Of a stretch of DNA of 64,000 nt, positions 22,917 to 45,089 are shown piece after piece (positions within the stretch are counted from its first letter, which is position 1; every line of letters starts with the position of its first letter). A program made the translations under genes and the position numbers. The stretch covers positions 472,155 through 536,154 of the forward strand of contig NZ_BNCD01000003.1 of the NCBI RefSeq assembly GCF_014656295.1, in the 5' to 3' direction. A model generated the notes under the pieces. The model was not told where the DNA came from and ran no database searches. It saw only the letters and a program-made list of their open reading frames with translations. The stretch comes from Streptomyces sulfonofaciens (GTDB lineage Bacteria > Actinomycetota > Actinomycetes > Streptomycetales > Streptomycetaceae).

Positions 22917-23012
22917 GCCGCCCCGAGACCCCCGGGACGCGAAGCCCCGCGGCCCCGCGGGCAGGCGCCGCGAGCGGCCCCGCGGGCAGGCGCCGCGCAC
23001 CGCGCCCCGGAC

Positions 23013-23034
23013 GTTCACCCTTTCTTCATGCCCG
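23013..23034 (+). promoter_or_regulatory. Candidate PHO box
   Basis: Two adjacent 11-bp units (23013-23023 starting GTTCACC, 23024-23034 starting CTTCATG) match the Streptomyces PhoP pattern of direct repeats beginning G/T-TTCAYC. They lie about 85 bp before a secreted acid phosphatase gene, the kind of gene PhoP activates. Binding is inferred. Confidence 0.55.
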
Positions 23035-40915: not shown

Positions 40916-41320
40916 TCAGAGCGGGGTTCGTAGGCGGCGGACGCATACGAGGCTTCAGGCCGGTTCGAGCAGGCCCTGGTGGATGTCGGCGCGTCGCTCG
41001 TAGCGCATGCGGACTCGCTCGAACCGGTGCAGCCAGGCCAAGGCTCGCTCGACCACCCGGCGGACCTCGCCCGGTCCGGAACCGTGGGCGGCGCCGCGTC
41101 GGTCGATCATGGGCTTGATGCCACGTTTCCACGGCAGGCGGCGGTACTCGTCGACGTCGTGGCCCCGGTCGGCGTACAGCCGCCGGGGCCGGCGGCGAGG
41201 GCGACCCCGCAGACCCCGGATCGGCGGCACCGCGTCCAGCAGTGGCGGGAGCTGGGTGGCATCGTGCCGGGTGCCCCCGGTGAGCGTGACGGCGAGCGGC
41301 GTTCCGTGACGGCGGTGATC
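40916..41320 (-). mobile_element. C-terminal remnant of an IS5-family transposase
   Basis: Reading the minus strand from about 41320, the frame gives HGTPLAVTLTGGTRHDATQL, then LYADRGHDVDEYRRL, HGSGPGEVRRVVERALAWLH and RRADIHQGLLEPA, the DDE-domain end of IS5-family transposases common in Streptomyces. A TGA at 40955-40957 interrupts it; the frame then continues SLVCVRRLRTPL to a stop at 40916. The N-terminal half and left end are missing, so it cannot move. It abuts the 3' end of the NAGPA/metallophosphatase gene, suggesting an old insertion or recombination at this border. Confidence 0.85.
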
Positions 41321-41379
41321 AACCGCCCGGTGAGGGGCGCCGGGACCCGCGGCCCCGGCGCCCCCGCGGTGCGCGTCGG

Positions 41380-44300
41380 CTACCGCACCGTCAGCCGTAC
41401 GCTGCCCGAGACGCCGCCGCTGGTCACCGAGACCGTGACGGTGCCCGGACGGCGGGCGGTGAGTCGGCCGGTGATCCGGTCCACCGCGGCCACCCGGCTG
41501 TCGCTGGAGGACCAGACGTGTGAGGCCGGGTCGGCGATCGGCATGGTGAGCTCCGGCAGGTTGTCGCCGCCGGTCTGGGTGCCCGTCGCCGTCAGTGTCA
41601 CCTTCTCGCCGGCGGCCGGCGTGGTCGTCGGCGCCGTGACCTCGATCGACGCGAGCGCCGGCTCCACCGAGAACTGGATCCGGCCGTCCGAGGAGGCGTG
41701 CACCAGACCGAAGTGGTAGAAGCCGCCCTCGTTCGAGGGCGCGTAGGCCGGCATGCCGAGGTCGGCGAACGTGAGCTGCGGAATGCCGCCCTCGGCCGTG
41801 CTGACGCTCCGGCCCTCGGGGTCGAGGATCTGCTCGGAGAATCCCCGTGCATGGCCGTACAGCATGATCACATGCTGCCGCGGGTGCGTCTGCTGGTACC
41901 GCTGCACCAGACGCAGGTACATCCGGGCCTCCCAGCGGTCGGTGAACTGGCTGTTCTTCGCCGCGTGCGGGTCGTACGCCGGCATGTGCGTGGTCACCAG
42001 CACGTCCTCGGCGGTGGTGGCGGTCAGTTGCTGCACCAGCCACGCGTACTGCGCGGCCTCGGGCTGCTGGAACGGGTCCGAGGACTGCAGGCTGCCGTGC
42101 GAGTTGTCCGTGACGATCACCCGGGCCGGGCCCTCGGTGTAGGCGTAGTGGGTGTCGCCGAACGTCTGCCCGTAGTTGCCGTTCTCGGCGTCGGCGCCCT
42201 GCGTGATCTCGTGGTTGCCCACGATGTCCCGGGCCGGGATGCCGAGCGCGTCCATCTTCGACTTGGCGAACTGCAGGTCGGGCAGCTTCCCGTCGTCGGA
42301 CATGTCACCCAGGAACTGGGCCGCGTCCGGCCGGGCCCGGGGGCTCAGGGACGGCAGCCGTTTCGCGATCGAGTCCATGACGCGGCTGCTCACCGAGCCC
42401 GGGTCGGACGCCAGCAGATGTGCGTCGTCGCCGGTCAGGAAGGTGCTGCCGGTCTTCGTGAACGCGGCGGAGTCCTCCTCGAACGTCAGCCATGACGGGT
42501 TCTCCGGGATCGCCCGGTACGCCGGCGCGGTCACCGGCCGGGGCGAGTACAGCGCCTGCAGCCCGGCCACGTTCAGGGCACCGCTGCTCGTCACGCTCGG
42601 GTTGATCGCGAGGAAGTCGACGAAGGAGATCGTCAGCGGGAACTGCAGGCCCGCGGGCAGCTCTGCCACGGCGAGCTGCCAGCCGTGCCAGGTGACATAG
42701 GTCGGGTACAGGGTGGTCTTCACGCCGTCCACGCCGATGTACGCCTCGGCGAGCTCGATGCCGGAGCCGTCGCCCTTGATCCACACCCCGATGCCGGTGG
42801 GGTTCTGCCCGTCGTCGCTCGTCGTCGTCTTCAGCGTCTTGGCGGACGACAGGACGAGCTGCTTGACGCCGGAGCCCGCGGGCATCGTGTAGTCCAGCCT
42901 CAGCGACCCGGACTCCGTGGAGCCGGGCGGCACATCGCCGGGCGCGGCGCTCAGGGCGGCCGGCTTCCCGGTGGTGTTGTTGCTGATGCGCCAGACGTCG
43001 GTGCTCGTCATCGGGTCGATGGTCTTGCTGACACTGCCGACCGCGATGGACGCCGTGGCGGTCGCCCCGCCGGCCGACGCGGTGACCTTGGCCAGTCCGC
43101 TCGCGGTGCGGTCGGCCGTGAAGAGGCCCTGGGCGTCGACGGTGCCGAGCGAGGCCGGCTCGACCGTCCAGTGCACGGCCTCGGCGGGGATCCGGACGGC
43201 CCCGCCGTGCCCCGCGGTGCCCGAGACGGTGAGCTGCTGGGTGGCGCCGTTCGCGAGGTCGGGGGCGTCCGGGGAGACGGTGAGGGTGTCGAGCCGGTCG
43301 ACCACGGTCAGCTTCCGTGAGGTCTTCGCCCTGCCGTCGTCCGCGACGATCCGCCCGCTGCCGGCCCGGTGCGCGGTCAGCTTCCCGTCGGAGACGGTGG
43401 CGAGCGAGGCGGGCCGGACCCTCACGTGCACGGCACCCGCGGCCGGGTTCCCCGCGGAGTCGGTGGCGTAGGCCGGGAGCGGCACGGTGCCGCCCGGGAC
43501 CGTCGTGAGGTCCTCGCCGCCGTTCACGACGACCTTCGTCGCGGGCCCCGGCCGGTCGGCGGTCGAGTAGAAGAAGATGCCGTTGGCGACCGGGCGCTCG
43601 GTGTTGCCGGGCAGGTCGGACGGCGTGTTGGCCACGGTGGCCTGGTGAGCGCCGGGGACCCGGGTCGCCATCGTGGTGGAGCCGCCGCCGTCGAACAGCA
43701 GGGCGGTCCAGGCGCCGTGCGCGGCCATGTAGCCGGCGGCCTGCTCCGGGGTGACGCCGAAGGCCGTGCCGGTGCCGCCGTGCCCGTCGATGGTCACGAC
43801 GATGGCGTGCCTGCCGTCCTTGGTGAGGCCGACGGCGGTCTCCGGGTTGGCGCCGCTGGGCGGGGTGCCCGTCGGGTCCTTGTAGACGTTGCCGTCCTTC
43901 ACCAGCGTCGTCACCCCGCTGACCAACTGCCGCAGGTCGTTGTCGGGGGAGATGCGGGTGGTCAGGGCGACCTGGTCGCCGGGGTGCAGGGTGTCGGCGA
44001 GCCACTGCCCGCCCGTCCCGCCGCCCAGCAGGCCGATCTGTCCCGCCGTCAGCCTGTCCACCGACGTCACACCGGTCCGTACGGTGTCGACGGTGAAGGA
44101 GCCGCCCGGGGCTGCGTGCCCGAGGACGAGGGTGCCCGCGCTCAGCCCCGGCGTGTCGCCCAGGTCGGGGGTGACCTCGGTGATGCCGTTCGACGCGATG
44201 TCGTCCACCGTGTTGACGGAGGTGAGCGGGTGCGAGGCGGAACCGTCCGTGATGGTGCCGCTGAAGGTCTCGGGGCCCATCACCATGCTGCCGTCCCGCC

Positions 44301-44850
44301 GGATGCCGAGCTGGGAGGCGAATCCGGTCCTCGGCGTCTTCAGCAACCGCCCGTCGGAGATCACCCCGCCCAGCGGGCGCCCACTGGCGTGGATGTCGAA
44401 GTAGTCGCCGTTCACACCGGCGACGGCGCCAGTCCGGTTGGCCATCGACGACACCGTCTCGTCGGCGGGGTTCGTCAGGGTGTCCCCGGCCTCCACCACA
44501 CCGACCCGCAGGTTGGGGTCGGTGAGGTCGGCCGTCAGCACCTGGGTGTGCTGACGGCCGCCGACGGTGTCGTACGTCTCCGCGTAGTGCCGCAGGCCGC
44601 GGGTCACCGTGTCGGTGGGCGTCCTGCTGACGTCCACCACCTGCGGCCAGTTCTCCGGCGTCGGCGGCAGCCACGCGCCACCGGTGGCCCGGCCCGCCGG
44701 CTCCCCGCCGGCCGGCTGGTCCGCCGAGGCCGCGCCGGCGGCCACGGCCCCGCCGGCCACCAGTACGGACAGTGCCGCGGCCACGGCCGTGTGGCGCGCG
44801 GCGGCCCGTATGCGTCTTCTGGGTCTTCCGCGTCTTCCGCGAAGGTTCAT
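41380..44850 (-). CDS. Secreted NAGPA / Ig-like / calcineurin-type metallophosphatase multidomain protein
   Basis: A 1156-residue exported protein. Order: Arg-rich signal peptide (hydrophobic AVAAALSVLVAGGAVA near 22-38); phosphodiester glycosidase (NAGPA) domain about 115-415 with NRTGAVAGVNGDYFD, LGIRRDGSMV and LLFDGGGSTTMA; Ig-like/Big_2-type modules about 440-610; a jelly-roll-like region to about 790; a metallophosphatase domain about 790-1060 with LGDMSDDG near 847, VGNHEIT near 878, VTTHMPAYD near 953 and YGHARG near 1000; and a C-terminal Big_2-like domain. The last motif reads GHAR rather than GHxH, so one metal ligand may differ. It may process phosphodiester-linked sugars of wall polymers. 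ATG at 44850 or 44856, both behind GAGGA. Confidence 0.87.
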   Translation of the reverse strand: MNLRGRRGRPRRRIRAAARHTAVAAALSVLVAGGAVAAGAASADQPAGGEPAGRATGGAWLPPTPENWPQVVDVSRTPTDTVTRGLRHYAETYDTVGGRQHTQVLTADLTDPNLRVGVVEAGDTLTNPADETVSSMANRTGAVAGVNGDYFDIHASGRPLGGVISDGRLLKTPRTGFASQLGIRRDGSMVMGPETFSGTITDGSASHPLTSVNTVDDIASNGITEVTPDLGDTPGLSAGTLVLGHAAPGGSFTVDTVRTGVTSVDRLTAGQIGLLGGGTGGQWLADTLHPGDQVALTTRISPDNDLRQLVSGVTTLVKDGNVYKDPTGTPPSGANPETAVGLTKDGRHAIVVTIDGHGGTGTAFGVTPEQAAGYMAAHGAWTALLFDGGGSTTMATRVPGAHQATVANTPSDLPGNTERPVANGIFFYSTADRPGPATKVVVNGGEDLTTVPGGTVPLPAYATDSAGNPAAGAVHVRVRPASLATVSDGKLTAHRAGSGRIVADDGRAKTSRKLTVVDRLDTLTVSPDAPDLANGATQQLTVSGTAGHGGAVRIPAEAVHWTVEPASLGTVDAQGLFTADRTASGLAKVTASAGGATATASIAVGSVSKTIDPMTSTDVWRISNNTTGKPAALSAAPGDVPPGSTESGSLRLDYTMPAGSGVKQLVLSSAKTLKTTTSDDGQNPTGIGVWIKGDGSGIELAEAYIGVDGVKTTLYPTYVTWHGWQLAVAELPAGLQFPLTISFVDFLAINPSVTSSGALNVAGLQALYSPRPVTAPAYRAIPENPSWLTFEEDSAAFTKTGSTFLTGDDAHLLASDPGSVSSRVMDSIAKRLPSLSPRARPDAAQFLGDMSDDGKLPDLQFAKSKMDALGIPARDIVGNHEITQGADAENGNYGQTFGDTHYAYTEGPARVIVTDNSHGSLQSSDPFQQPEAAQYAWLVQQLTATTAEDVLVTTHMPAYDPHAAKNSQFTDRWEARMYLRLVQRYQQTHPRQHVIMLYGHARGFSEQILDPEGRSVSTAEGGIPQLTFADLGMPAYAPSNEGGFYHFGLVHASSDGRIQFSVEPALASIEVTAPTTTPAAGEKVTLTATGTQTGGDNLPELTMPIADPASHVWSSSDSRVAAVDRITGRLTARRPGTVTVSVTSGGVSGSVRLTVR

Positions 44851-45089
44851 CGTCATCGTTCCTCGGATCACTTGCCGAAAATCTTCGGCAATGGCTCAGA
44901 GGACACCATGTCGGTTACTTCGGGATGGAGTAAGAGAGGACGACAGGACACCTTCGGGTCGCACCGAGTTCACCCGGACCCCGCAGTGGCGTGGGGAACC
45001 GCCCGAGAAGCCGGAGCGATGCCGCAGGGCCGCCCCCGGCCCCACGGAACCGGCTCTGTCGCCGGGCCCACCGCCAGGTGGGAAACCAG

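Follow-up and report, generated by a model that had tools for sequence, protein, structure and literature searches.

The window analyzed here, a stretch of 64,000 nucleotides from Streptomyces sulfonofaciens, contains a gene whose product (the window protein) joins a NAGPA, or phosphodiester glycosidase, domain to a calcineurin-like phosphoesterase domain. The gene is a single open frame on the minus strand that encodes 1163 residues when counted from a GTG; the likelier start is an ATG at 44856 or 44850, with a GAGG at 44861-44864 preceding both. The frame is not a chance one because full-length relatives with 47-74% identity occur in 11 other genomes and more distant fused relatives (30-32%) in five more. 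A first-pass annotation of the window, made from the letters alone, had described an exported chain and placed it at 41380-44850. The N-terminus does resemble a signal peptide, export itself being what we infer from it, and the C-terminus of the translation shows neither an anchor nor a sorting signal. As judged from its sequence, the window protein is probably exported and retained by its accessory domains.

Two catalytic domains in one chain

Six module profiles cut from close relatives gave the module order NAGPA, two immunoglobulin (Ig)-like domains, jelly roll, phosphoesterase, and Big_2. A Pfam scan that listed families up to E 1 recognized NAGPA, Metallophos, and Big_2 (61.1 bits over two stretches, cut-off 22.8). 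Structure prediction of residues 65-1163 was confident, with a mean predicted local distance difference test score (pLDDT) of 90.6 and a predicted template modeling score (pTM) of 0.87. The predicted fold of the jelly roll resembles the flagellar sheath protein FlaA1 (9cyn, Z 19.3, 2.1 Å, 158 aligned), and its profile matches 10lm (E 3e-4). Pfam, the models, and the relatives thus bear out the NAGPA, Ig-like, and metallophosphatase modules that had been reported in one chain, to which the overlooked jelly roll and an extra C-terminal Ig-like (Big_2) domain have to be added.

The NAGPA domain scores 104.7 bits against PF09992 (cut-off 25). The corresponding part of the predicted model matches BPSS2145 (6ozd, Z 35.6), BACOVA_00430 (3ohg, Z 29.8, root-mean-square deviation (rmsd) 2.8 over 261), Slr0280 (5h3k, Z 28.0), and vertebrate NAGPA (6pku_B, Z 25.2, rmsd 2.5 over 229). 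In an alignment of up to 124 rows, the core positions are invariant or have one exception, as at D362. The window protein keeps N154, G174, D362, G363, D394, G396, G397, S398, and R426, each covered by 118-122 rows, together with G372 and G386, and by this alignment its NAGPA core is intact. Position 344 is Glu in the window subclade, Val in Catenulispora, and Arg in zebrafish NAGPA and 3ohg.

The phosphoesterase belongs to the calcineurin-like superfamily by profile and fold. It scores 21.9 bits against Metallophos (PF00149, cut-off 21.5), and its top sequence-profile matches are GpdQ (E 1.4e-11) and Rv0805 (E 3.2e-8). Predicted alone (residues 783-1072), the domain reached a pLDDT of 92.2 and a pTM of 0.92, so that the structure predictions proposed in the first-pass annotation were confident for both catalytic domains. 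The model is closest to GpdQ (2zo9, Z 23.9, 2.4 Å over 223), followed by Rv0805 (3ib7, Z 23.0), Lmo2642 (Z 22.3), and purple acid phosphatases (Z 21.7 and below). Motifs I to IV are standard (D816-A-H818, GDMSD 855-859, GNHE 885-888, and H962). Measured against the canonical two-metal type of GpdQ, Rv0805, and ShfP, the window protein departs only in motif V, where GHAR replaces GHxH. By the numbering of GpdQ, R1009 presumably stands in for a histidine ligand of the alpha metal, which would keep its three other ligands, and the beta metal its four.

With moderate confidence, we read the window protein as an exported two-enzyme protein that acts in the Gram-positive cell wall on glycans linked through phosphodiesters. 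The first-pass annotation had gone further and proposed a stepwise scheme in which a phosphate is uncovered and then removed. Both domains are present and conserved together, and the scheme is chemically sound; a strict order is possible but less well supported, given diesterase-like relatives and domains that part company. Because phosphodiesterases are the closest matches of the phosphoesterase in profile and fold, diesters may be cut in parallel, with a GpdQ-like phosphodiesterase cleaving backbone diesters of the same polymer regardless of the NAGPA step. We hold this as a tentative alternative with a minority share of our confidence. It would suit four relatives (L057, L059, L060, and L068) that carry NAGPA, two Ig-like domains, and a jelly roll without a detected phosphoesterase. 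However, purple acid phosphatases, which are monoesterases, lie within roughly 2-3 Z units of the phosphodiesterases, and the fold cannot separate the two activities.

Table 1. Features of the window gene and of the protein that it encodes
Feature	Position in window	Strand	Basis or remark
Whole gene	41380..44871	-	1163 aa counted from GTG, stop included
Signal-peptide-like N-terminus	44722..44871	-	Rich in Arg, followed by a hydrophobic stretch and, around residue 48-50, an AxA-like site; read off translation
NAGPA (phosphodiester glycosidase) domain, residues 85-440	43552..44619	-	Pfam, module profile, alignment, fold match
Ig-like domain A, residues 445-526	43294..43539	-	Module profile; strand pattern of predicted model
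Ig-like domain B, residues 527-612	43036..43293	-	Module profile, further profile search
Jelly-roll domain, residues 613-782	42526..43035	-	FlaA1-like fold
Calcineurin-like phosphoesterase domain, residues 783-1070	41662..42525	-	Pfam, profile search, model, fold match
Motif V, GHAR 1006-1009 replacing GHxH	41845..41856	-	Read from sequence
C-terminal Big_2 domain, residues 1073-1163	41383..41655	-	Pfam, module profile

Motif V and module conservation among relatives

Motif V was surveyed in 54 rows, of which seven were duplicates of the same contigs. The remaining 47 were grouped by us into a window clade of 33 rows and a distant clade of 14. This survey was seeded with the window protein's own family and speaks for that sample, not for all NAGPA-phosphoesterase fusions. 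One row (L054) ends before motif V, which leaves 32 readable rows in the window clade; 28 of these carry GH[AS]RG[FW] (25 GHAR, 3 GHSR), and motifs I to IV are intact in all 28. Motif V reads [GA][SA]H[VA]G in every row of the distant clade (14 of 14), and GHxH was found in none of the 46 readable NAGPA-fused phosphoesterases of the sample. As a control, 13 other Metallophos places of the own genome were searched with a regular expression, which found GHxH in nine (L118, L119, L121, L122, L124-L126, L128, and L129) and no motif V near GNHE in L120 and L123; L127 and L131 were unreadable, and L130 is the window gene itself.

Three relatives (L004, 1498-5214 on the minus strand; L058, 3506-7090; L062, 7875-11720) have visibly broken phosphoesterase metal motifs and intact NAGPA motifs. 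A Paenibacillus relative (L072) is divergent; its phosphoesterase region gives a poor alignment, and it was scored as not GHxR.

Since 28 of the 32 readable clade rows keep GH[AS]R, we rejected decay as the origin of GHAR, which these alignments identify as a conserved clade trait. The replacement of GHxH that had been noticed in the single sequence is thereby confirmed. In the alignment of the catalytic residues, whose loss had been named at first pass as a ground for refutation, the NAGPA core and phosphoesterase motifs I to IV are intact and one metal ligand is lost. Because three relatives have a broken phosphoesterase beside an intact NAGPA domain, the two activities are, as far as motifs can tell, not obligatorily coupled.

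Comparison of the modules between relatives bears on the function of the GHAR domain. In six Streptomycetaceae relatives (L034, L003, L046, L036, L038, and L037), identity to the window protein is 79-85% in the phosphoesterase, 71-82% in NAGPA, and 59-76% in the two Ig-like domains; in a seventh (L044), it is 63% in the phosphoesterase and 50% in NAGPA. The phosphoesterase is thus the best-conserved catalytic module in the Streptomycetaceae pairs, and the order is reversed in the broken-motif L004 (60% versus 64% for NAGPA). In pairwise comparison, conservation is mostly lowest in the Ig-like domains, the jelly roll is less conserved in L037, and the pairs beyond Streptomycetaceae (L039-L041) show smaller differences between modules. 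The dN/dS ratios (nonsynonymous to synonymous substitutions) come from simple counting in DNA of high GC content and are valid only for comparing modules. Because the phosphoesterase outranks NAGPA in conservation and this order is reversed in L004, the comparison speaks for a functional GHAR domain.

It is conceivable that the phosphoesterase is a pseudo-enzyme in the window clade, a binding or spacer module next to a NAGPA domain that alone is active, but we consider this unlikely. The lack of GHxH throughout the sample would fit such a module, as would L004, L058, and L062, in which most motifs are missing and the domain region is still recognized. The intact motifs I to IV of all 28 GH[AS]R rows and the conservation of the module in Streptomycetaceae argue otherwise, and LpxH, of the same superfamily, has Arg in place of His in a different motif, block 3 (PMC3087551), and is an active enzyme. 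We expect the GHAR domain to be an active enzyme with an altered metal preference or substrate range rather than a dead one.

Distribution, neighborhood, and upstream region

Among the 61 genomes searched, own included, the close full-length form was found in 12 and the distant fused form in five; 20 gave partial matches, mostly to the NAGPA part, and 24 gave none. Within the genus, the close form is present in 2 of 37 genomes, again with the own one. A contig search returned 113 relatives, of which 79 loci were kept. The full form occurs in Streptomyces, Actinacidiphila, Amycolatopsis, Actinoallomurus, Catenulispora, and Lacisediminihabitans, and by these matches both catalytic domains are conserved together in several actinobacterial families. 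The arrangement NAGPA-Ig-jelly roll without a detected phosphoesterase was seen in Bacillota and Chloroflexi contigs and in Tumebacillus; Eremiobacterota and Pseudonocardia had NAGPA by itself or combined with Ig. Two tandem NAGPA-type open frames are present at each of the Eremiobacterota loci L076, L087, L090, L100, L104, and L110, and the gene of L055 is split over two frames. Plasmid records gave seven matches, one of at least 80% of the length in an 11.9 Mb Nonomuraea record, and phage records gave three, none over 80%. The own genome has two further NAGPA-family places (L113 and L114, on contigs C14 and C2); in the one on C2 (also L002), the module profiles found no phosphoesterase module.

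In a NAGPA tree of 78 rows, made by a quick method and with long branches, the fused proteins fall into two clades with unfused kin within each; the rows removed beforehand were seven duplicates, 30 selected loci, most of them from Eremiobacterota, and those that were short. The phosphoesterase tree, rooted with own-genome outgroups and drawn without L054, L058, L062, and duplicates, has very long outgroup branches on which one fusion and two are indistinguishable.

Gene neighbors were compared as open reading frames from stop to stop of at least 90 aa in 23 related loci and the window stretch. No recurrent neighbor was found across these 24 stretches except for ATP-binding cassette (ABC) transporter gene matches in four loci; four Catenulispora-type loci have neighbors in common with each other. 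A transposase fragment (DDE_Tnp_1, 40955-41350, minus strand) adjoins the downstream end of the window gene. The patchy presence and the lack of a fixed neighborhood could suggest a foreign target, such that the protein degrades walls or exopolysaccharides of competitors or inactivates sugar-phosphodiester antibiotics, and a role in conflict has been suggested for a NAGPA-TelC pair of Bacillota (PMC12419801); yet the ten neighbors scanned included no recognizable toxin, immunity, or resistance gene, and we deem this explanation improbable.

Directly upstream of the gene, two 8-base arms around a 4-base spacer form a perfect palindrome (44872-44891), possibly an operator or hairpin. With up to one mismatch allowed, it occurs once in the 8.6 Mb genome, and it was not found upstream of relatives. 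A PhoP-box-like site at 44957-44974 has 3 mismatches to the consensus; 12 such sites occur in the window, for 4.8 expected. For 47 upstream stretches, the best site in each was compared with 60 simple shuffles. The best sites had 2 mismatches in L003 and L035 (0/60 shuffles as good) and 3 at the window gene (3/60), in L055 (2/60), in L015 (3/60), and in six Amycolatopsis loci, where the site lies inside a conserved block (2 to 5 of 60). Sites with 4 mismatches were found in L034 and L046 (13/60 and 20/60), and the other stretches of the 47 had no site beyond chance. Phosphate-starvation control of the window gene is a lead only. Elsewhere in the window, two PhoP-box-like matches, overlapping and spaced by 11 bases (23002-23030), lie where a Phosphoesterase-family gene begins (PF04185, 23028-24005, plus strand), which is plausibly phosphate-regulated. 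Neither conserved neighbors nor a firm regulatory site reveals the substrate of the window protein.

Proposed action and known systems

In our preferred reading of an exported two-enzyme protein, the NAGPA domain would hydrolyze a sugar-1-phosphodiester, so that the sugar is set free and the phosphate stays on the next unit. The GpdQ-like phosphoesterase would then hydrolyze the exposed phosphate or an adjacent phosphodiester, and the Ig-like, jelly-roll, and Big_2 domains would keep the chain on its polymer. By analogy, the target is most likely a sugar-phosphodiester polymer of the cell wall such as a teichoic acid, and wall teichoic acid would be a concrete candidate. Its alpha-N-acetylglucosamine (GlcNAc)-1-phosphate linkage to position 6 of N-acetylmuramic acid (MurNAc) is the bond type that NAGPA enzymes cut, and its glycerol-phosphate backbone would offer the diester type for GpdQ-like enzymes. 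Several observations weigh against this reading. The Metallophos score is only just above the Pfam cut-off, one metal ligand is absent from the GHAR site, and L004, L058, and L062 pair broken phosphoesterase motifs with intact NAGPA motifs. In addition, Glu344 stands where vertebrate NAGPA and 3ohg carry Arg, conserved gene neighbors were not found in the 24 stretches compared, and the upstream PHO-box-like site is one of 12 at its level in the window.

A bolder version, to which we give little credence, is that the fusion family cleanly frees wall teichoic acid from peptidoglycan. NAGPA would cut the GlcNAc-1-phosphate linkage, and the phosphoesterase, its metal site recast by Arg for the alpha-metal His, would remove the MurNAc-6-phosphate stub; fusions may have arisen repeatedly, each losing GHxH. 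If teichoic acid linkages are indeed the target, the protein would represent both a route by which wall polymers are released or recycled and a tool for doing so. Whether a calcineurin-like site can function when its metal site is depleted is a question that the conserved GHAR makes readily testable, and L004, with its broken motifs, is a natural negative control.

NAGPA-calcineurin fusions are already published among ShfP-like proteins. The radiation of ShfP is stated to include members fused to NAGPA (PMC11488536), the point that likens it to the window protein. ShfP (YvnB) of Bacillus subtilis is described there as a secreted calcineurin-like enzyme; the release of glycerol requires it with its catalytic residues intact, and lipoteichoic acid is the authors' guess for the glycerol source (PMC11488536). 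Our suggestion of teichoic acid as the substrate is drawn by analogy with ShfP and PhoD (PMC11488536). ShfP carries a lamin tail domain, lacks NAGPA according to the published list, and keeps the HxH of motif V, whose H1114 and H1116 were mutated (PMC11488536), whereas the window protein has NAGPA, a jelly roll, and GHAR. With no lamin tail domain in its Pfam list up to E 1 and without the two motif V histidines, the window protein falls outside the orthologs of ShfP.

Vertebrate NAGPA, the uncovering enzyme (6pkg, 6pki, 6pku, 6pky, and 6u11), and BACOVA_00430 share the NAGPA fold and core residues with the window protein but have the Arg of RTAVG/RTSVG in place of Glu344, and the window protein carries a phosphoesterase on the same chain. 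The glycerophosphodiesterase GpdQ (2zo9, 3d03, and 2dxl) and Rv0805 (3ib7 and 2hy1) resemble its phosphoesterase in fold and profile; they have GHxH rather than GHAR, and the window protein is a multidomain chain with predicted export. The distant fused relatives (L014-L018, L032, L033, L067, L069-L071, L073, L101, and L103) also have NAGPA followed by a phosphoesterase, mostly with a Big_2 match, but they form a separate NAGPA clade with their own motif V. Among them is S. clavuligerus WP_003959332.1 (L033), auto-annotated as 'phosphodiester glycosidase family protein'. The literature searched, at the level of listings, named no actinobacterial NAGPA-phosphoesterase fusion and no such change of motif V, and no paper naming a substrate of a bacterial fusion of this kind was found in it. 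The architecture is already known, and the kept loss of one metal ligand seems to be unpublished. What is new here is the anatomy of the subfamily, its jelly roll included, together with the conservation of GH[AS]R and the members whose phosphoesterase motifs are broken.

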